This document shows, one piece after another, positions 1-59,507 of a stretch of 64,000 nucleotides of DNA. The stretch lies in NCBI GenBank assembly GCA_020436025.1, contig JAGQYP010000002.1:1-64000 (forward strand), in the 5' to 3' direction. A program made the translations under genes and the position numbers. Each line of letters opens with the position of its first letter. The first letter of the stretch is position 1. This stretch comes from Crocinitomicaceae bacterium. GTDB lineage: Bacteria; Bacteroidota; Bacteroidia; Flavobacteriales_D; Crocinitomicaceae. Below the pieces are notes generated by a model, which saw only the letters and a list, made by a program, of their open reading frames with translations, was not told the origin of the DNA and did no database searches.

Positions 1-1182
1 AGTTTGGAGTATTTTGAATTATACATTACGAGTAAGGACAGTCTTGAAAAAGAAGAGAATCAGAAAGAAGTTATCCGACAAGAATACAAATACGAATACG
101 AAAAACAAGCTTTGCAAGACAGCATCAAGAACGCAGAAGCACAAAAAATCAAGGACGCAGAACTGGCCGCTGAAAAAGCAGAAGGAAAAAGACTTGAAAT
201 TCAAAACAAACAACAGCAACAACAAAAGTATTTTCTCTTCGGAGGCTTAGCTCTTGCCCTCGTATTTGGAGGCTTTATTTTTAATAGATTCCGGGTTACT
301 CGCAAACAAAAAGGAATCATTGAAGAGCAAAAAGAAAAAGTAGATGAAGCTTACGAAGAATTAGGAGAAAAAAATCAGGAAATATTAGATTCCATCAACT
401 ACGCCAAAAGAATTCAGTCGGCCATTCTTCCTCCACAGAAACTTGTCAAATCGTATTTGGAGCAATCATTTATCCTCTATAAACCCAAAGATATTGTGGC
501 GGGTGATTTTTATTGGATGGAGGTTTTGAGCAAGAGTAGTGAGCAAGAGCAAGAGTTGATTTTATTGGCTGCATGCGATTGTACGGGTCATGGGGTTCCG
601 GGAGCGATGGTTTCGGTGGTTTGTAATAACGGTTTGAATCGAGCGGTTAGAGAATATGGGCTTACGGATCCTGGGAAAATTCTAGATAAAACACGAGAGA
701 TCGTTATTCAAGAATTTGAAAAAAGCGAAGAGGAAGTGAAGGATGGAATGGATATAGCAGTTGTGAGTCTTGAGCAAGAGCAAGAGGGAGAGGGTTCTCT
801 TGCTCAAAACTCTTGCTCGAAACTCAAATATTCCGGTGCTCATAACCCACTCTGGATCATCCGAAAAGGAGCTGAAGAAGTGGAAGAAATCAAAGCAGAC
901 AAGCAACCTATTGGTAGGTTTTCCAACCCTGTTCCCTTCACTACACATGAAATTTCTCTTAATTCAGGAGATACGATCTACATTTTCTCGGATGGATTTG
1001 CAGATCAGTTTGGCGGAGAAAAAGGCAAGAAATTCAAAGCAGCAAACTTCAAAAATCTACTGCTTTCCGTTCAAAAAGAATCCATGGACAAGCAAAGAGA
1101 ACTGATTGACCAAGCATTTGAAGAATGGAAAGGAAATTTAGAGCAGCTCGATGATGTATGTGTGATTGGTGTAAGAGTATAA
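1..1182 (+). CDS. SpoIIE-type (PP2C) serine phosphatase, 5' end outside window
   Basis: The reading frame is open from base 1, so the N-terminus lies outside the window. Visible order: a charged coiled coil (to about residue 75), one membrane helix (about 76-96), a second coiled coil, then a SpoIIE/PP2C domain (about 130-392). Catalytic-type motifs are GDFYW, DCTGHGVPGAM, KDGMD, SDGFADQFGG and a terminal DDVCVIGV. Family knowledge: these phosphatases remove phosphate from STAS-type anti-sigma antagonists, and in Bacteroidota this architecture is often preceded by TPR repeats, which would lie upstream. Compared with the phosphatase at 5484-8744 it carries two extra Glu/Gln/Ser-rich peptides (about residues 175-183 and 257-272), both encoded by the GAGCAAGAG repeat. 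Confident on family; target unknown. Confidence 0.93.
   Translation, partial: SLEYFELYITSKDSLEKEENQKEVIRQEYKYEYEKQALQDSIKNAEAQKIKDAELAAEKAEGKRLEIQNKQQQQQKYFLFGGLALALVFGGFIFNRFRVTRKQKGIIEEQKEKVDEAYEELGEKNQEILDSINYAKRIQSAILPPQKLVKSYLEQSFILYKPKDIVAGDFYWMEVLSKSSEQEQELILLAACDCTGHGVPGAMVSVVCNNGLNRAVREYGLTDPGKILDKTREIVIQEFEKSEEEVKDGMDIAVVSLEQEQEGEGSLAQNSCSKLKYSGAHNPLWIIRKGAEEVEEIKADKQPIGRFSNPVPFTTHEISLNSGDTIYIFSDGFADQFGGEKGKKFKAANFKNLLLSVQKESMDKQRELIDQAFEEWKGNLEQLDDVCVIGVRV
525..558 (+). repeat. GAGCAAGAG repeat inside coding sequence (copy A)
   Basis: Three GAGCAAGAG-type units lie in frame in the phosphatase gene just before the DCTGHG motif and encode a Ser/Glu/Gln peptide. The same units, separated by the same TAGT-like spacer, make up the intergenic array at 21878-21974 (read on the minus strand). 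Confidence 0.8.
770..822 (+). repeat. GAGCAAGAG palindromic element inside coding sequence (copy B)
   Basis: Two overlapping GAGCAAGAG units (772-780, 778-786) are followed by two inverted CTCTTGCTC units (797-805, 810-818). They can form a hairpin and stay in frame, encoding about 16 extra residues between the KDGMD block and the LKYSGAHN block. Confidence 0.85.
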
Positions 1183-5483: not shown

Positions 5484-8400
5484 GTGAAAAAGAGTATACG
5501 TTCCATATTCAATTTGAAAACAGGCCTGTTTTTACTGGTCCTTCTTTTCGTTGGCTCCTCTTTTTCTCAAAACAAATTAAGTTACGGACACCTTCCTTAC
5601 AAAAACTATCCGAGAAATGTATACAATGGTCAGCAACAGAATTTCGGTATTGTTGAAACCGACGACCATACGCTGATTTTTGCCAACAACAGTAACATTC
5701 TGGAATTTGACGGAAACAACTGGACCAAGATCAGAGTAGGAAAAGTTGAAGAAGGTCAAGATTCCACATTGAATCCTAAGTCTGTTTTCAAGACTAATGC
5801 GGGAACCATTCTAGTTGGATGTGAAAATGCTTTTGGTTTACTCGTTTTCAATGAAAGAGGCGGAAAAGAGTTTCAATACCTTTCCAATCCTTCAGACAAA
5901 GATATCATTGGAAAAATCTGGAATATTTTCGGTAATGAGGATGAGTATTATTTCATAGGTGAAAAAGCCATTTTTGTTTACCGGGAGAATCAAGAAATTG
6001 AAACCATCAAATATCCTGAAGGCTACACCAGAGATAATGCGAGCCAGATCAAAAGAAATTTATTCATCTCCTTGGTGAAGAAAGAAGCTGGAAATGCTGA
6101 AAAAGCCCATTCGCATTTACTCTTCAATACTAAAACCAAAAAATTCGACCCTTTCCTTCCTAATATTCCGGAGTTTCAAAACATTACTGCGGTTAAGTTT
6201 ATTACTCCTTGGAAAGATGACAAGCATTATTTAGCTATTACGCAGAAAGGTCAGGCCTACTCCATCAATTTCGTTACCAATCATCTTGCAAAACTAGATG
6301 TGTTCGAAATGAAAATGAATGACGTGTTATTACACGCTGCCATGCAAAATGGATTGATCATTTTCTCGACGGAAAAATCAGGGGTTTTCATCTTTGACCA
6401 ATTGGGAATGCTCATCCGCCAAATCAATGACAAAGACGGATTGATCGATAATGGGGTGAACTTTTCTTACATAGATCGCCAAAATAACCTTTGGTGTTCG
6501 ACTGCAAATGGAATTTCTTTAATCGAACTTTCTTCTCCTGTCAGCTCCTTCGGTAAAAACGATGGTTTGATTTCCAAAGCAGAGGATATTGTCTATTTCA
6601 ATGACGGAATTTTTATAGCTTCTGGAGCCGACATGAATAGATTGGCTCGAAAGGAAGTCAATGGGAAATTTAAAGGATTGAATTTTGGTCAGCCTACTTT
6701 TAATTTCGCCAAAGTTCACTTAGATGGAGAAGAGAAAATTTTGATCGTTGGGTATGATGGTATTTACTCCATGAACAAAAATCTGGAGAAGAAAAGTGAA
6801 ATCCCGAATCTCTATGCCTGGAAAATCATCCAAAGTCACGTGGACACCAACAGGATTTACATCGGAACAGAATCTGAAGGAGTTGCAAGTGCCTATTGGG
6901 ACGGAAGTAGATTCCAATTGGAAACTTTCTACAAAAACACTGGAGAACTCATTCGTTCCTTGGTGGAATTCAATGGAGAAGTGTATTACGGACTTTCCAA
7001 AAAAGGTTTAGCACGATTGGATACGACTAAAACGCAGGAAGAAAACATCATTCCCGGGATTCAATCCGAAGACTTGAAAGATTTCTCCGTTGCCGTATTT
7101 CAAAATCGACTTTATGTAGGAACTACAGACGGATTGTATTATTTGTCCGAGGACGGAAAGAAACTACTTCCATTCGAGCAATTCAATTTGGTTGAGAAAG
7201 ATCTTTATGTACACCGCGTATTTAATGAAGGTAACAAAAGATTGTGGTTGGTATTGTTCTACAAGAGTGATAGTGACGATAATAAACCTGTATTTGGATA
7301 CATTGAACCTTCAAAAGATGGAGAATGGAAATTTGTTACGGCTCCATTTAGATATTTCACAGATGATATTGTACAGGGATTCACGAAAGATGTAGATGGA
7401 AATATTTGGTTGGGAGCTGATGCTCAGACTTATGTCGTGGACATGGATCAGTTGGCCAATCTTATTTCAAATTTCAAGATCAACATTACCAATTTCACGG
7501 TTACTGGAGGGGAATCTTACTTTGAAAACTTCAATCACTTTGCAGGTTCCATTCCGCAAATTGAATACACTCAAAACTCGGTAAGAATTGAAGCTTCCGC
7601 TCAAAGTTATTATGGAGGAGCCAAGAATCAATTTAGATTCAGACAAAATGGAGGGAATTGGAGCGAATGGACAGATATCAACTGGAAGGAATACCAAAAC
7701 TTGGATGAAGGAGTCTACACTGTCGAAGTGCAGGCAAAAGATTATTATGGAAATGAAAGTAGAATCATTTCGATCACTTTCACCATCTTGCCGCCTTGGT
7801 ACAGAACCTGGTGGGCTTATGTCATTTATGTGATTGGAGCCATCGCCATTATTTATGGGTTGATCATGCTTTCACTGTACCGAGTAAAACAGCAGAAAAA
7901 GAGACTTGAAACCATTGTAAAAGAAAGAACGGCGGAAATTGCCAAACAAAACGAAGTACTTGCTGAACAAAAAGATGAAATTGAGCTGAAGAATCAGGAT
8001 ATTTTGGACAGTATTAAATACGCCAAGAGAATTCAAGATTCCATCCTCCCTCCAGTGGAAAAAATGGATGCAATGTTTACGGACTATTTTGTTCTTTTCA
8101 AACCTAAAGACATTGTATCTGGCGACTTCTATTGGGCGGAAAAAATTGACGGTAAATCTTTATTTGCTGCGGTAGACTGCACAGGTCACGGAGTACCAGG
8201 AGCGATGGTGTCTGTTGTAGGAAATAATGGTCTAAACAGATCCGTAAAAGAATTCAATTTAAGAAGTCCTGGAGCAATTCTGGATCAGTTAAGAGAAATC
8301 GTAATTGAAGCCTTCAACGCACAGAACAATATGGACGTGAAGGACGGAATGGACATTGCCTTGTGTTCCATTGATTATGAAAACTTGAAACTGGAGTATT

Positions 8401-8744
8401 CTGGAGCTAACAATCCATGTGTGATTATTCGAGACGGTGAAATCATTGAAACGCGTCCGGACAAACAACCAATTGGCCAATTCATCAATAAAACACCATT
8501 TACAAATACAGTGGTGGATCTGCAAAAAGGAGATACGATTTATGTGTATTCGGATGGATACGTGGATCAATTTGGTGGAGACAAAGGAAAGAAATTGAAA
8601 TCTCGTCCATTTAAAAACCTATTGTTGACTATTCAGGACTTACCGATGGATCGACAAAGGGAAAAGCTTGACAACCTATTTGAAGAGTGGAGAGGCAATT
8701 ATGAACAAATAGATGACGTTTGTGTTTTTGGAGTAAAAATCTAA
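5484..8744 (+). CDS. Propeller sensor (Y_Y_Y) protein with SpoIIE phosphatase output
   Basis: A 1086-residue sensor with a GTG start. The signal peptide (1-29) is followed by a periplasmic two-component-regulator-type beta-propeller (about 30-680), a Y_Y_Y domain (about 690-768), one membrane helix (about 774-797), a coiled coil, and a cytoplasmic SpoIIE/PP2C domain (about 840-1086) with GDFYW, DCTGHGVPGAM, KDGMD, SDGYVDQFGG and DDVCVFGV. This is the layout of hybrid propeller kinases with the kinase replaced by a serine phosphatase, so an outside signal probably controls dephosphorylation of a STAS protein. It lacks the repeat-encoded insertions of its two paralogues in this window. The next gene follows after six bases, so the two are probably translated together. 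Confidence 0.93.
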   Translation: MKKSIRSIFNLKTGLFLLVLLFVGSSFSQNKLSYGHLPYKNYPRNVYNGQQQNFGIVETDDHTLIFANNSNILEFDGNNWTKIRVGKVEEGQDSTLNPKSVFKTNAGTILVGCENAFGLLVFNERGGKEFQYLSNPSDKDIIGKIWNIFGNEDEYYFIGEKAIFVYRENQEIETIKYPEGYTRDNASQIKRNLFISLVKKEAGNAEKAHSHLLFNTKTKKFDPFLPNIPEFQNITAVKFITPWKDDKHYLAITQKGQAYSINFVTNHLAKLDVFEMKMNDVLLHAAMQNGLIIFSTEKSGVFIFDQLGMLIRQINDKDGLIDNGVNFSYIDRQNNLWCSTANGISLIELSSPVSSFGKNDGLISKAEDIVYFNDGIFIASGADMNRLARKEVNGKFKGLNFGQPTFNFAKVHLDGEEKILIVGYDGIYSMNKNLEKKSEIPNLYAWKIIQSHVDTNRIYIGTESEGVASAYWDGSRFQLETFYKNTGELIRSLVEFNGEVYYGLSKKGLARLDTTKTQEENIIPGIQSEDLKDFSVAVFQNRLYVGTTDGLYYLSEDGKKLLPFEQFNLVEKDLYVHRVFNEGNKRLWLVLFYKSDSDDNKPVFGYIEPSKDGEWKFVTAPFRYFTDDIVQGFTKDVDGNIWLGADAQTYVVDMDQLANLISNFKINITNFTVTGGESYFENFNHFAGSIPQIEYTQNSVRIEASAQSYYGGAKNQFRFRQNGGNWSEWTDINWKEYQNLDEGVYTVEVQAKDYYGNESRIISITFTILPPWYRTWWAYVIYVIGAIAIIYGLIMLSLYRVKQQKKRLETIVKERTAEIAKQNEVLAEQKDEIELKNQDILDSIKYAKRIQDSILPPVEKMDAMFTDYFVLFKPKDIVSGDFYWAEKIDGKSLFAAVDCTGHGVPGAMVSVVGNNGLNRSVKEFNLRSPGAILDQLREIVIEAFNAQNNMDVKDGMDIALCSIDYENLKLEYSGANNPCVIIRDGEIIETRPDKQPIGQFINKTPFTNTVVDLQKGDTIYVYSDGYVDQFGGDKGKKLKSRPFKNLLLTIQDLPMDRQREKLDNLFEEWRGNYEQIDDVCVFGVKI

Positions 8745-21856: not shown

Positions 21857-21877
21857 TTTCTGGACTTTTTGATTTTA

Positions 21878-21974
21878 CTCTCTACTCTTACTCTTACTCT
21901 TGCTCTTGCTCATTACTCTTGCTCATTACTCTTGCTCTTGCTCCCCACTCTTGCTCACCACTCTTGCTCAAAAC
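21878..21974 (-). repeat. GAGCAAGAG intergenic array
   Basis: About ten GAGCAAGAG-like units on the minus strand, spaced by TGGT, GGG or TAAT, fill the gap between the SafE-like stop and the decarboxylase gene. Same unit as inside the SpoIIE genes. Confidence 0.9.
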
Positions 21975-31194: not shown

Positions 31195-31300
31195 TGAATT
31201 AAGAATGTAGAATTAAGAATTAAGAATTAAGAATTAAGAATTAAGAATTAAGAATTAAGAACCGAGCGATAGTGGCTTATCGACTGATTAGGAAATAATT
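31195..31300 (+). repeat. GAATTAA heptamer tract and degenerate 42-bp repeat
   Basis: About nine GAATTAA-like units (31196-31260) run into a degenerate copy of the 42-bp interspersed repeat (31260-31300), the same order as at 2440-2525. Confidence 0.85.
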
Positions 31301-35509: not shown

Positions 35510-37939
35510 CTAAAGGCGAATCCCAATAACACAGACATCATCCAGCTGTTCTAGGTTTCCTCTCCACTCTTCGAAGACTTTGTCTAGCGTGAGCATTTGT
35601 TCTTCCATGGAAAGGTCTTGGATTTTGAGAATGAGTTCTTTCATAGACTTGTATTTAAACTTCTTCCCTCTTGGTCCGCCAAACTGATCTGCATAACCAT
35701 CTGAAAATAAGTAAACAGTATCACCTGCCCTCAAATTCAGTTGATTTGTGGTAAATGACGTAGCATCTTCAAAATTTCCTATGGGTTGTTTGTCGGCTTT
35801 TATTTCGTATAAATTGTGATCCACTCCCTCCATCAAACTAATTCTCTCTTCTGGAATAGCCGGAGCATCCTGACTAAGTTCTACTTCTGATGTTTTTCGT
35901 ACGATCCACAGGGGGTTATGAGCACCAGCGTATTTTAGTACTGAGCAAGAGGATTGGGCAACAGATTGATTTTTACTCTTGCTCGATTGCTCTTGCTCAA
36001 TACTGATCAAAGCTCCATCCATTCCATCTTTCACCTTATCTTCCCCTGATTCGAAAGTTTCTTGGACCAAACCAGATAATTTATCCAAAATTTCTCCCGG
36101 TTCTTTCAACTCAAATTCCTTGACGCATCTATTCAATCCATTAGCTCCTACCACGCTTACCATGGCTCCTGGAACTCCGTGTCCTGTACAATCTACTGCT
36201 GCAATCAAAGTTTTGTCTTCAAATTCATTCATCCAGTAAAAATCTCCTGAAATGATGTCTTTGGGTTTATAGAGTACAAAACTCTTCGGAAAACTATCTT
36301 TTACTCGAGCTTTGGTAGGCAAAATCGCTTTTTGGAGTCTTAAGGCGTAATTAATGGAATCCACCATTTCCTTATTCTTCTCCTCGATCATTTCTTTCTG
36401 TCTTTTCAGCAATCGAGTTCTTGCTTCTACTTTGTCCTCCAGATTGTGGATCATGTCAGACAAAGAATTTTGCATATGAATAAAACTTTTGGAAAGAATC
36501 CCAATTTCGTCGCCACCTCTTGGATCAATCTTCACCTCTAGATTACCTGTTGCCAATTCTTCGGCTCTTTTGGTTAATTCCTTGATTGGTTTTGTAATCT
36601 TTTTAGAAATGAAGAAAGAAGCAATGACAATGGAAATCAGCAATCCGAAAAAGGTAATGATGATATTGTTTCGAAGATCGTATACATGAGAAAAGGCTTC
36701 GTCTTTATCAATCTCAGACATGATAACCCAATGCATATCCTCTATTTTTAAAGGCTTGTAGGACGAAAGCACATCAACTCCCCGATAATCTTTGAAAATT
36801 TTCGTATTGGTTTCTCCTTCCAAGGCGGCAATCGTTCCTTCTGTTTCAACCTTTTGCAAACCCACTGTGCTTTCAAAGGTTTTGATTTTTTTGATTGTTT
36901 CTTCGGGTGTACCAATTGAGGCAATCATTCTGAAATAATTCTCACGATCTTCAATGAAAAAACGCGATTGATTTCTTAAACTAAAATCTTCAGCCACAAT
37001 ATAGGTTTCTCCAGATTGTCCCAATCCTACTTCCGCCCATTCGTGTCTGTTGGTCATGATCTCATTGATCTTTTTAATAGGCATTTGAAAGATCAGGGTT
37101 CCAATATTTTTACCGTCTTTGAAAATCGGTGTAGCAATGAAGGAAGCGGGTTCAGCGTAAGACGGCAAATAAGATTCAAAATCTACCAAGCGAACAAAGT
37201 CCTTGTTTTTAGCATTTTTGGAGGCTTGAAAAGCTCTGGCGATATTGGAATTGGCATATGGTCCATCGATCAAAGATGTCGCATAATCTACCTCTTTATA
37301 CACAGAATAAACAATTCTACCTGTTTCATTGTCTACTAAGAAAATATCGTAATATTCAAACTTTTCGAGGTAAGATCGAATCAGGGGATGATAAGCTAAA
37401 TGGGCTTTACTGTAAAAACTCCCATCTTTCGCATAATCCATTAACTGTTTTCGACCTAGTGGATATTCGTTATCTGAAATATATTCATCTTGTAAGATAA
37501 TCGCCGCTTTATCATTAGGCCAATGCTTTTTGTAATCCTCTGAAATTTTCGCATCAATATTCAGCTTAGGTAAAAAATTGTATTCGTAATATTTTCTTAG
37601 TCTGTTTTCAGCAGCTTGAAACTGTACAGGAGAAATTTGCAATTCTGTAACAATGGTATCAAATCCCTTTTTGAAATCAACCATCGCATCTACAATGGTT
37701 AGATCTTCTGAAAAAGTAATGATTTGATTGCGTATGTCGTTGAAATAATCCTCAATCTGAGTGGCTTTCATTTCTCTTACCGCAGTTAAACGGTTAAAAG
37801 ATTCTTTTCTGAGGGAGGACTTTCCTTGTTCGTAGGCCAAGTATCCAATAACAACAATGGATAAAAAAGCAATGACAAAGAAGGCTAATGTCAGTTTGAA
37901 GTTGATCTTGGTATCGTTAAATTTCTTGAAAAAGCCCAC
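35510..37939 (-). CDS. Cache-HAMP-SpoIIE sensor phosphatase
   Basis: 809 residues. Membrane helix 17-36, a large periplasmic cache-type sensor domain (about 40-415), second membrane helix (about 420-443), HAMP (about 445-500), a coiled coil and a SpoIIE/PP2C domain (about 540-809) with GDFYW, DCTGHGVPGAM, KDGMD, SDGYADQFGG and DDVCVIGI. A ligand outside the cell probably controls dephosphorylation of a STAS antagonist inside. Between KDGMD and LKYAGAHN it carries a repeat-encoded insertion (about 647-665), plus a further linker around SEVELSQDAPAIPEERI. Two decayed copies of its 3' end lie just downstream. Confidence 0.93.
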   Translation of the reverse strand: MGFFKKFNDTKINFKLTLAFFVIAFLSIVVIGYLAYEQGKSSLRKESFNRLTAVREMKATQIEDYFNDIRNQIITFSEDLTIVDAMVDFKKGFDTIVTELQISPVQFQAAENRLRKYYEYNFLPKLNIDAKISEDYKKHWPNDKAAIILQDEYISDNEYPLGRKQLMDYAKDGSFYSKAHLAYHPLIRSYLEKFEYYDIFLVDNETGRIVYSVYKEVDYATSLIDGPYANSNIARAFQASKNAKNKDFVRLVDFESYLPSYAEPASFIATPIFKDGKNIGTLIFQMPIKKINEIMTNRHEWAEVGLGQSGETYIVAEDFSLRNQSRFFIEDRENYFRMIASIGTPEETIKKIKTFESTVGLQKVETEGTIAALEGETNTKIFKDYRGVDVLSSYKPLKIEDMHWVIMSEIDKDEAFSHVYDLRNNIIITFFGLLISIVIASFFISKKITKPIKELTKRAEELATGNLEVKIDPRGGDEIGILSKSFIHMQNSLSDMIHNLEDKVEARTRLLKRQKEMIEEKNKEMVDSINYALRLQKAILPTKARVKDSFPKSFVLYKPKDIISGDFYWMNEFEDKTLIAAVDCTGHGVPGAMVSVVGANGLNRCVKEFELKEPGEILDKLSGLVQETFESGEDKVKDGMDGALISIEQEQSSKSKNQSVAQSSCSVLKYAGAHNPLWIVRKTSEVELSQDAPAIPEERISLMEGVDHNLYEIKADKQPIGNFEDATSFTTNQLNLRAGDTVYLFSDGYADQFGGPRGKKFKYKSMKELILKIQDLSMEEQMLTLDKVFEEWRGNLEQLDDVCVIGIRL
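35943..35998 (-). repeat. GAGCAAGAG palindromic element inside coding sequence (copy C)
   Basis: In gene sense: two GAGCAAGAG units (35990-35998, 35977-35985) then a CTCTTGCTC unit (35943-35951), in frame, at the same codon position as copy B in the phosphatase at 1-1182. Confidence 0.85.
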
Positions 37940-38036
37940 TTGTAAAATTTTGGTGGCAAGATAATAAAACTCAAGAAATTAGCCGAGTGAAATGGACGAG
38001 TAAAATGAATGAAAATCCAATCTTGAGATCTGCCAT

Positions 38037-42005: not shown

Positions 42006-42075
42006 CTCTTGCCCATTACTCTTGCTCTTGCTCAATACTCTTGCTCTACACTCTTGCTCCTCACTCTTGCTCAAA
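42006..42075 (-). repeat. GAGCAAGAG intergenic array
   Basis: About six GAGCAAGAG-like units on the minus strand, with spacers TAGA, TGAGG, TATT. Same family as 21878-21974. Confidence 0.85.
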
Positions 42076-48713: not shown

Positions 48714-48741
48714 ATAGCGTGAGAATGAATTATTATGTATC

Positions 48742-48835
48742 AACCAAGCGATAGTGAGCTCATCGACCGATAGGGAGATAATTATCAAGTATCAACCGAG
48801 TGATAGCTAGCATATTGACAGATAGGGATTTATTT
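48742..48835 (+). repeat. Two tandem copies of the 42-bp interspersed repeat
   Basis: 48742-48784 (good match) and 48793-48835 (degenerate), in the gap between the two paralogous membrane genes. Confidence 0.85.
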
Positions 48836-55502: not shown

Positions 55503-55588
55503 AAATTATCTCCCTATCGGTCGTTGAGCTCGCTATCGCTCGGTTCTACACTCGAAAAACTCTACACTCGAAAAACTCTACACTCCAA
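55503..55588 (-). repeat. 42-bp repeat (inverted) and CTCGAAAAACTCTACA units
   Basis: 55503-55544 is the 42-bp repeat on the minus strand; 55545-55588 has two to three ACTCTACACTCGAAAA units, reverse complement of the TTTTTCGAGTGTAGAG units near 41865. Confidence 0.85.
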
Positions 55589-57824: not shown

Positions 57825-58568
57825 ATGTTAAAGGTATTCAATTTACTTATCATCGGTTTATTCTTTATGTCTTCAGATCCACAAACCGGCTTCAAGGAAA
57901 AACAAAAAACCTACTCGAGAGTTCGAACTGCTTATAGCGAAAAGGAATCTTCACTTAAAAAAGAACTGGAAGCTAAAGGATTTGAATTCAGTAAGATTAA
58001 TAAGATATTCATTAGAGCCTTGAAAAAAGAGATGGATTTGGAAGTCTGGATTCAAAAATCAGATGGCAAGTACCATTTATTCAAAACGTACAAATTTTGC
58101 AGTTTCTCTGGAATTCTTGGTCCGAAAATGAAACAAGGGGATTTACAAATTCCAGAAGGAGTCTACACCATTGATCGATTTAATCCATGGTCTAATTTCT
58201 ACTTGAGTCTTGGAGTGAGCTATCCAAACAAAGCAGACAGAATCAATAGTCCTTACAAAAGTAAAGGCGGAGATATTTTCATTCATGGAAATTGTGTGAC
58301 TATCGGATGCATTCCAATCACTGATGAATTCATCAAGGAATTTTATGTTTTATGTGTGGAGTCAAAAAATAAAGGACACGAAATTCCCGTTCACATCTTC
58401 CCGTTTAGAATGAATTTTGATTTAAAAACAATACCAAGTTATTCGGATTATGCAGAAGGAGCGGAAAAACTTTGGCCTAATTTGCAGCCTATTTTCAAAG
58501 ATTTTGATGAGAAGAAAACGCTGAGTAAGATTTCTATTGATGAGAAAGGTATGTATGTTTTGAATTAA
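57825..58568 (+). CDS. L,D-transpeptidase (YkuD family)
   Basis: 247 residues. A short signal peptide, then a YkuD fold with catalytic His154 and Cys162 in IFIHGNCVTIGCIPI; the usual HGx(n)SxGC reads HGNCVTIGC. Family enzymes cross-link peptidoglycan stems or attach lipoproteins to it. The length and motif fit the murein L,D-transpeptidase group with an extended N-terminal helix. Monocistronic. Confidence 0.88.
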   Translation: MLKVFNLLIIGLFFMSSDPQTGFKEKQKTYSRVRTAYSEKESSLKKELEAKGFEFSKINKIFIRALKKEMDLEVWIQKSDGKYHLFKTYKFCSFSGILGPKMKQGDLQIPEGVYTIDRFNPWSNFYLSLGVSYPNKADRINSPYKSKGGDIFIHGNCVTIGCIPITDEFIKEFYVLCVESKNKGHEIPVHIFPFRMNFDLKTIPSYSDYAEGAEKLWPNLQPIFKDFDEKKTLSKISIDEKGMYVLN

Positions 58569-58628
58569 GAATTAAGAATTAAGAATTAAGAATTAAGAAT
58601 TAGGAATTAGGAATTAGGAATTAAGAAT
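58564..58628 (+). repeat. GAATTAA heptamer tract
   Basis: Six GAATTAA units followed by three GAATTAG variants, between the transpeptidase and the YwqK-like gene, same family as 31196-31260. Confidence 0.85.
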
Positions 58629-58645
58629 TTTGTGAGATTGAAGAA

Positions 58646-59368
58646 ATGATTGGGAGAATTTACATATTGTTTGTTGGGCTTGTAGTTGTTTCTTGTTCTA
58701 CCGATATGGGGGAAGAGGAAGAGCCAGTGAAGCCAAAACAACCTGCTCGTTTGGATGTGAAGCCGCCTGAATACAACAAACCTGATGATGGGGATTCGAC
58801 TTTGAATGAAACGGATTCTTTGGGTCGGAAAATTGGGAAATGGGAAACCGAAGTAGATGGTCAGGTATGGAAGACGGAATTCTACAAGGATGGAAAGCTA
58901 CATGGGCTACAGACTCAAAAATTGGACAAAGGAAAAGTTTTAGAAACTCACTTCGCCAACGGTAAGAAAAATGGAATTTCTCAGGAGTACCAGGACGGAG
59001 CCAAAGTAGCTGATTATTTAACCATTTACCAAAACGATAAGCGGGTATTCTCCACTTTTCCGAAAGATTTGGCTCAAGGAAATTTTAAAAAAATCATTTT
59101 CTCTACTGAACTTGATTCCATCGATCTCAAAATAAATTACCTCTCGGGCAAAAAACTATATGAAGGAAAGATCCTGAAAAAGTCGAATATTCGAGGAGTT
59201 CCAGTAGGCGAACACAAGGTGTTTTACGAAAACGGTCAAACCAAATACCTCCTGAATTTCGAAAAGGACAGCATTTACCAATTTGACACAAAAGGTAATC
59301 CAAAAGACACCTCCTTTTTCTCCTACGAAAAGAAAATCTGGCCGGTGTATGATGGAGTTAAAATTTAA
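58646..59368 (+). CDS. YwqK/MORN-repeat lipoprotein
   Basis: 240 residues. Lipoprotein signal with Cys17 (VVVSCS), an acidic Pro-rich linker, then MORN_2-type repeats (GKLHGLQTQ, NGKKNGISQEYQDG, VGEHKVFYENGQ). The repeat family is sometimes called toxin-antitoxin YwqK antitoxin, but lipidated relatives in Bacteroidota have unknown roles; no toxin gene adjoins. The stop is followed by GGAATTCGGAAT repeats. Confidence 0.75.
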   Translation: MIGRIYILFVGLVVVSCSTDMGEEEEPVKPKQPARLDVKPPEYNKPDDGDSTLNETDSLGRKIGKWETEVDGQVWKTEFYKDGKLHGLQTQKLDKGKVLETHFANGKKNGISQEYQDGAKVADYLTIYQNDKRVFSTFPKDLAQGNFKKIIFSTELDSIDLKINYLSGKKLYEGKILKKSNIRGVPVGEHKVFYENGQTKYLLNFEKDSIYQFDTKGNPKDTSFFSYEKKIWPVYDGVKI

Positions 59369-59507
59369 TTCGGAATTTGGAATTCGGAATTCGGAATTTG
59401 GAACCGAACGACAGCAAGAAACTGCAAGAGCAAGAGATTTGAGTAAATGTTCTATCCCACTTAATTTTGCATTTTGCACTTTGCACTTTACATTTTGCAT
59501 TTTGATT

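Follow-up and report, generated by a model that had tools for sequence, protein, structure and literature searches.

The window analysed here, 64,000 nucleotides long, forms the start of a 137.6-kb contig in the 3.64-Mb genome (192 contigs) of a member of the Flavobacteriales, called the source genome below. It opens with an ORF whose protein is a SpoIIE/PP2C phosphatase. Indeed, Pfam SpoIIE (PF07228) is recognised in residues 187-393 (E 2e-19), and the AF2 model of the domain matches SiaA-PP2C (6k4e) in Foldseek (E 9.5e-23). Two turns of this domain, loop 1 and loop 2, hold inserts of repeated DNA. The features concerned are the following:

1..1182, plus strand: SpoIIE/PP2C-type phosphatase ORF, 5' end beyond the contig start (Pfam PF07228, AF2 model match)
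524..555, plus strand: loop-1 insert in the same gene as the hairpin at 764-826, direct TTTTGAGCAAGAGTAGTGAGCAAGAGCAAGAG, resembling the intergenic arrays, no hairpin
764..826, plus strand: coding hairpin filling loop 2, 63 nt, RNA fold -34.4 kcal/mol
772..786, plus strand: two overlapping GAGCAAGAG units, 5' arm, encoding EQEQE
797..805, minus strand: inverted GAGCAAGAG unit 1
810..818, minus strand: inverted GAGCAAGAG unit 2
7989..8741, plus strand: SpoIIE domain with plain loops 1 and 2, the paralogue used for empty-site comparison
21875..21969, minus strand: intergenic direct GAGCAAGAG array, 13/6-nt period
35510..37978, minus strand: second SpoIIE-family gene, plain loop 1, palindrome in loop 2, divergent backbone
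35930..36004, minus strand: loop-2 insert of gene 35510-37978, SIEQEQSSKSKNQSVAQSSCSVLKY, hairpin -28.7 kcal/mol
42006..42074, minus strand: intergenic direct GAGCAAGAG array, 13/6-nt spacing

A sequence-only reading of this locus had described two overlapping and two inverted GAGCAAGAG units inside the SpoIIE domain, and we confirmed them, at 772 and 778 on the plus strand and, inverted, at 797 and 810, all within PF07228. The palindrome that it had placed at 770-822 is real and extends further, over 764-826 (TGAGT.TTGAGCAAGAG ... CTCTTGCTCgAA.ACTCA), with an outer stem TGAGT/ACTCA, a next stem TTGAGCAAGAG/CTCTTGCTCGA, and an inner stem GAG.GAGAG/CTCTT.CTC. Its inverted-repeat score has a p value of 0.005 against codon shuffles and of 0.01 against synonymous resampling. 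The insert occupies the turn between DGMDIAVVS and LKYSGAHNPLW, and the stretch from DGMD to SG counts 26 residues vs 15 in the plain paralogue at 7989-8741, so that 11 residues are extra and not about 16 as had been estimated. In the AF2 model, the strands bordering loop 2 are longer (E129-141/E145-160) and the tip is of low confidence (pLDDT ~54), while the model of the plain paralogue has tight beta-turns at both loops (E47-53/E56-64 and E121-129/E134-141). The insert is thus predicted to lengthen a surface beta-hairpin, with an uncertain tip, and the reading frame is kept. None of the 38 SpoIIE-family hits of the source genome contains an internal stop codon. We found no orthologue of ORF 1-1182 devoid of the insert; paralogues with plain loops exist. 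Two features had escaped the earlier reading, i.e., the second palindrome-bearing gene of the window (35510-37978) and the second insert of ORF 1-1182 (524-555). The latter sits in the turn preceding ILLAACDCTGHG, where loop 1 has 20 residues vs 13 in the plain paralogue.

The GAGCAAGAG word matches 23 times in the window vs 0.41 expected from shuffles, and 284 times in the source genome vs 5 for a reversed control pattern; the 15-mer GAGCAAGAGCAAGAG occurs 94 times in that genome and its reversed control not once. The same unit had been said to build intergenic arrays, and the word is indeed shared, but the arrays at 21875-21969 and 42006-42074 are direct repeats, in a single orientation throughout, and not palindromes. 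Genome-wide, about three quarters of the multi-unit clusters outside SpoIIE are intergenic according to our own tally, and within any array all units have one orientation, with spacings of 13 and 6 nt. On the other hand, the closely paired inverted form (AGCAAGAG, at most 30 bases, CTCTTGCT) is limited, in the whole genome, to seven SpoIIE paralogues, always in loop 2 and with both window genes among them, a distribution that lends no support to a mobile palindrome derived from the intergenic unit.

Direct copies of the word are found in frame in several unrelated genes, namely inside the ThiE (PF02581) and DUF1697 (PF08002) domains, in a secreted protein, and in the tails of a glyoxalase, a glycosyltransferase, and an acyltransferase. 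The in-frame copies in unrelated genes that the earlier reading had named as support are therefore present, but as direct ones only, the closely paired inverted units being confined to SpoIIE. As for the clean empty sites expected in relatives, we obtained one: in the acyltransferase gene (L187:10173-10973, minus strand), an array replaces the stop region and adds a 16-residue C-terminal tail, and the orthologue of a species of the same genus ends in ...GPLVE, just ahead of the insert. ThiE and DUF1697 do not provide clean insertions. In both, the word stands in place of other residues, the protein being of nearly or exactly the same length as in relatives, and its placement looks like overwriting. 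The ThiE gene of the source genome (L198:757-1422) has the word (RARAR), other genera have a plain loop, and the congener (L343:1501-2202) has, at this very site, an insert of 20 residues that is unrelated to the word. In DUF1697 (L195:2597-3122, minus strand, and L351:1501-2010), a GAGCAA word occupies the same loop in both congeners, shifted by 11 nt and read in different frames, without net length change. Two other ORFs were observed in passing: an FKBP-type protein (L201:2529-3077, minus strand), whose signal peptide and lipobox (LLQLLLLLTTLAHNSC) are read from the antisense of an array, and a very EQ-repeat-rich ORF of 550 residues (L178:2722-4371), built from the GAGCAA word, with no Pfam hit.

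The comparison within the genus was made with one genome, G001, the congener. It contains 75 copies of the GAGCAAGAG word vs 284 in the source genome, has few arrays, and in its sampled intergenic DNA GAGCAAGAG k-mers are at background level; at least seven of its SpoIIE paralogues nevertheless have a GAGCAA-type loop 2. Since related loop-2 inserts are present there but arrays are few, the loop-2 insert would have come first and the arrays later, unless arrays were lost from the congener, a point that a single congener cannot settle. The earlier proposal that the coding palindrome derives from an intergenic element is not supported by this distribution, the loop insert being present in several congener paralogues that have so few arrays beside them.

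These results bear on whether an intergenic GAGCAAGAG element was transposed into the gene, in the manner of the Rickettsia palindromic elements (RPE). Such mobility would account for a word common to intergenic arrays and to in-frame sites of several unrelated genes, for the acyltransferase tail absent in the congener, for loop-1 insert DNA nearly identical to the intergenic arrays, and for inserts on divergent backbones. We nevertheless hold it to be improbable: closely paired inverted units occur nowhere but in SpoIIE loop 2, arrays are few in the congener although its loops have the insert, in ThiE and DUF1697 the word hardly lengthens the protein, if at all, no target-site duplication was recognised by eye around the loop-2 hairpin, and no transposase could be linked to it. 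Indeed, the three PF01797 genes (RAYT/Y1 transposases) of the source genome have no GAGCAAGAG copies nearby, and we rejected them as movers; no enzyme for insertion and no partner transposase for the hairpin were found, and a phage or plasmid vehicle was discarded for want of any match.

The inserts themselves inform on how they spread. Two divergent paralogues, gene 35510-37978 of the window and L162 of the congener, have the insert, the 5' flank next to it showing no rise in identity, and in L056 identity rises modestly 3' of the insert. With no raised 5'-flank identity, transfer must have been confined to the insert or to a short patch; a long gene-conversion tract carrying the insert to divergent paralogues was rejected on this ground, a short tract being possible (L056). 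Loop 1 changes faster than loop 2: the orthologues L032 and L139, a supported pair, have unrelated words there, and of the sisters L037 and L041 only one has a loop-1 insert. Dating the insertions by the paralogue tree was abandoned because the tree is weakly resolved (17 of 76 inner branches starred).

The phosphatase belongs to a large family. Protein searches gave 38 SpoIIE-family hits in the source genome and 51, 50, 21, and 59 in four other genomes; the SpoIIE/PP2C family is expanded in Flavobacteriales (G059, G060, G061), with about 20-60 hits per genome. Across this expanded family, inserts recur at common sites, chiefly loop 2 and to a lesser degree loop 1. In the source genome, a GAGCAA-type loop 2 is present in at least 11 paralogues (in L043, with a nested CCTGAGCTTGTCGAAGG), GAGAATGAG/CTCATTCTC in loop 2 of two, and GTTCCAAGT/ACTTGGAAC in loop 1 of three. 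Loop 1 of the congener contains GAGGAACGAG, GGCC-, and CCCCTCC-type palindromes. In other genomes, the same two loops are occupied by CTTCGACTCCGCTCAG/CTGAGCGGAGTCGAAG (G059), CCCTCTCCAAAGGAGAGGG and TACCGATG-type words (G060; both genomes being other Flavobacteriales), CCCCTCCTTGGGAAGGAGGGG, GGAACGAG, and others. Several of these loop words of other genomes resemble palindromic repeats known from Bacteroidetes intergenic DNA. A general filling of the loops from intergenic repeats of the host was rejected, k-mer enrichment being seen for GAGCAAGAG of the source genome and absent in four other genomes.

Thus, the insert words differ between paralogues and between genomes, yet inverted repeats are frequent among them. 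The inverted-repeat score is above that of codon shuffles (p<0.05) in 37 of 101 expanded loops, vs 6 of 302 control segments of equal length from the same genes, and it is above that of synonymous resampling, in which the protein is fixed, in 28 of 101 loops vs 3 of 302 controls. At least eight unrelated words pass the test. The 37 passing loops do not represent 37 independent events, because loops within a genome are related by paralogy, and the other 64 of the 101 have no significant inverted repeat against codon shuffles. In sampled DNA of the source genome, inverted repeats scoring at least 26 number three in 8.9 kb of SpoIIE coding sequence, all in the loops, and one in 246 kb of other coding DNA; in G001 and G061, some of the SpoIIE inverted repeats counted fall outside the loops. 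More than half of the SpoIIE paralogues are devoid of the hairpin in each genome sampled.

The loop-2 insert in this genus is conserved as DNA, most strongly in its two arms, which is unlike an ordinary protein loop. Among the GAGCAA-type genes of both species, synonymous-codon identity (calculated on codon pairs encoding the same residue) reaches 0.80-0.88 in the loop-2 arms and 0.60 in the centre, while elsewhere in the domain it is mostly 0.3-0.6 (extremes outside the loops, 0.19 and 0.69) and random codon choice predicts 0.42. Third codon positions are as conserved as first and second ones in loop 2, which is not the case in the flanks, and the Glu codons GAG:GAA stand at 37:4 in the loop vs 113:182 elsewhere. 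Synonymous codons being conserved in loop 2 far above the rest of the domain, the insert has been kept as nucleic acid. An old protein loop, with the same peptide written in unrelated codons, had been named as the outcome that would speak against an inserted element; we found the opposite, codons conserved above neutral expectation.

These statistics also bear on a reading in two separate parts, namely an old low-complexity loop and, independently of it, a similar purine-rich word that grew between genes in the manner of a microsatellite. The word is of low complexity and grows in 6- and 13-nt steps, and E/Q/S-rich loops are common, as this would have it. Against this, the 15-mer is present 94 times in the source genome and absent for its reversed control, the codon choice of the loop opposes gene-wide usage in a manner common to both species, and the inverted repeats exceed synonymous resampling. 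Codon conservation and inverted-repeat statistics already largely refute this reading, and we judge it very improbable.

The explanation that we favour, with moderate confidence and about as much doubt, is that the two permissive loops of SpoIIE act as a sink for coding palindromes, which are copied among paralogues and whose arms are kept complementary by a process acting at the DNA level. Two surface beta-turns may tolerate foreign peptide, so that palindromic DNA landing there in frame would survive. Duplication and short-patch transfer could then spread an insert among the paralogues, and its arms would be kept complementary most likely by template switching between them (quasipalindrome correction). 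The GAGCAAGAG loop-2 insert would have arisen before the split of the two species of the genus; later, in the source species alone, the word would have multiplied as direct 13/6-nt tandem arrays, both between genes and inside some of them, namely several paralogues (loop 1) and a few others. The loop-1 GAGCAAGAG inserts are direct and not inverted, which counts against the sink for palindromes. Moreover, strong homogenisation within a genome does not predict equal core identity within and between genomes, and the synonymous-codon identity of loop 2 is equal within the source genome and between the two species. Our confidence in the mechanism is moderate because this equality fits constraint at least as well as homogenisation.

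Constraint leads to the main rival of template switching, a hairpin functional as RNA or DNA, through ribosome pausing, through mRNA stabilisation or regulation at a beta-strand junction, or through protein binding, with selection keeping the pairing. Such a function would produce the pattern observed, in which synonymous sites are most conserved in the arms and less so in the centre, to the same degree within a species as between the two, and the pairing is kept while the word changes. A few compensatory pairs point the same way (GAGT/ACTC vs CAGT/ACTG in congener paralogues; GTGCAA/TTGCAC in L141). They are suggestive only: in 11 related sequences, three pairs changed on both sides and the covariation score was reached by 27 of 500 shuffles, and we rejected covariation as proof of a selected structure on account of this weakness. 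Compensatory changes being no more than suggestive, the maintenance of the arms is something that we infer. A function of the hairpin is possible but on the whole unlikely, given that more than half of the paralogues in each genome sampled do without it, that orthologues may hold entirely different loop-1 words (L032/L139), that no Rfam family matches the loop-2 hairpin above threshold (the best hit being far below the gathering score), and that a shared function would need to be independent of sequence. A broader proposition, which we rate as rather doubtful, is that the SpoIIE loops of Flavobacteriales are a maintained hairpin site, where selection or a dedicated process would keep a hairpin whose sequence is replaced repeatedly, so that the hairpin, and not the peptide, would be the conserved trait.

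Among known systems, the palindromic elements of Rickettsia and Wolbachia (RPE/WPE) are palindromic DNA inserted in frame in protein genes, at solvent-exposed positions and with the frame kept (PMC2229807, PMC3767692); their insertion sites may be hotspots with different element groups in orthologues (PMC3767692), and RPEs measure 100-150 bp, one family being found across many unrelated genes (PMC2229807, PMC3767692). The loop-2 palindrome is similar to them in being in frame inside a protein gene, solvent-exposed, frame-keeping, and placed at reused sites. The parallel to RPEs drawn by the sequence-only reading holds for the in-frame coding insert and fails for palindromic copies in unrelated genes. 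Indeed, the SpoIIE palindrome is restricted to two loops within a single set of paralogues, and the copies found in unrelated genes are direct; SpoIIE loops gain about 33-60 nt and the hairpin has 63 nt (RPEs are set apart here by length, not by consensus alignment); the loop words of one genome are unrelated to those of another; and between genes the unit forms direct tandem arrays. The loop palindrome thus works like an RPE and is not a member, as neither the size nor the spread over unrelated genes of RPEs is found. A MITE would have terminal inverted repeats, a target-site duplication, and a partner transposase; the hairpin is symmetric, with no duplication seen by eye and no partner transposase found.

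Intragenic REPs of the GTAG and CGTC families are palindromes of 20-40 bp within ORFs, tolerated at the protein level, and CGTC repeats are reported in Bacteroidetes (PMC3733652). They are likewise in-frame palindromes outside Rickettsia, but the GAGCAAGAG word has no GTAG/CGTC tag, the Y1 transposase genes have no copies nearby, and its palindromes are not mainly extragenic. In mitochondrial genes of Nematomorpha, inverted repeats are also kept inside coding sequence, where both arms encode conserved protein under strong amino-acid selection (PMC6649704), whereas the SpoIIE arms encode a variable loop and it is the synonymous sites that are conserved. PARCEL repeats share dyad symmetry in a coding repeat; they form tandem amphipathic protein repeats of 25 residues, in ORFs that have no assigned function (PMC2996958), unlike the single 26-residue loop described here, which forms no tandem protein repeat. 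Finally, template-switch homogenisation of short inverted repeats is documented in microbes and yeast (PMC8794818, PMC8604942). It is a mutation mechanism and not an element, and it predicts complementary arms, multi-base compensatory changes, and unusually conserved arms.

Most in-frame palindromes described so far come from Rickettsia and Wolbachia or are intragenic REPs scattered over genomes. In the openly licensed literature, we found no report of a single large family that gathers them in two of its loops, the words being unrelated and the conservation lying at the nucleic-acid level. The SpoIIE family assembles many such cases, with dozens of paralogues in each genome and words that are unrelated among related genomes; it therefore becomes testable whether coding palindromes are junk that the protein tolerates, hairpins that a mutational bias maintains, or structures with a function as RNA or DNA. 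The codons of this protein loop are constrained as nucleic acid and not as protein, which also calls for caution when selection tests are applied to low-complexity loops.

Intergenic heptamer direct repeats, e.g., TAACTGA, some of them within ORFs and some in Bacteroidetes, have been described (PMC4679880). They have in common with the GAGCAAGAG arrays a short tandem intergenic word and differ in word and period, and a palindromic coding form is not described there. The window itself contains intergenic tandem arrays of 7-nt words (1260-1376, 2360-2598, 31196-31261, 58562-58629, and 59367-59403; words GTTCTAA, TTTTCAC, GAATTAA, and AATTCGG) that resemble these heptamer repeats. A 52-nt repeat with CGAGCGATAGCGAGC...CGACCGATAGGGAG is present at 48728-48828 and at about 2487-2523, and a nested CCGATAGCTCTGGATGGCCATCCGG insert in loop 2 of the congener gene L162 looks partly similar to it. 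Lastly, 55545-55585 is a perfect 16-nt tandem repeat, TCTACACTCGAAAAAC, in 2.6 copies.
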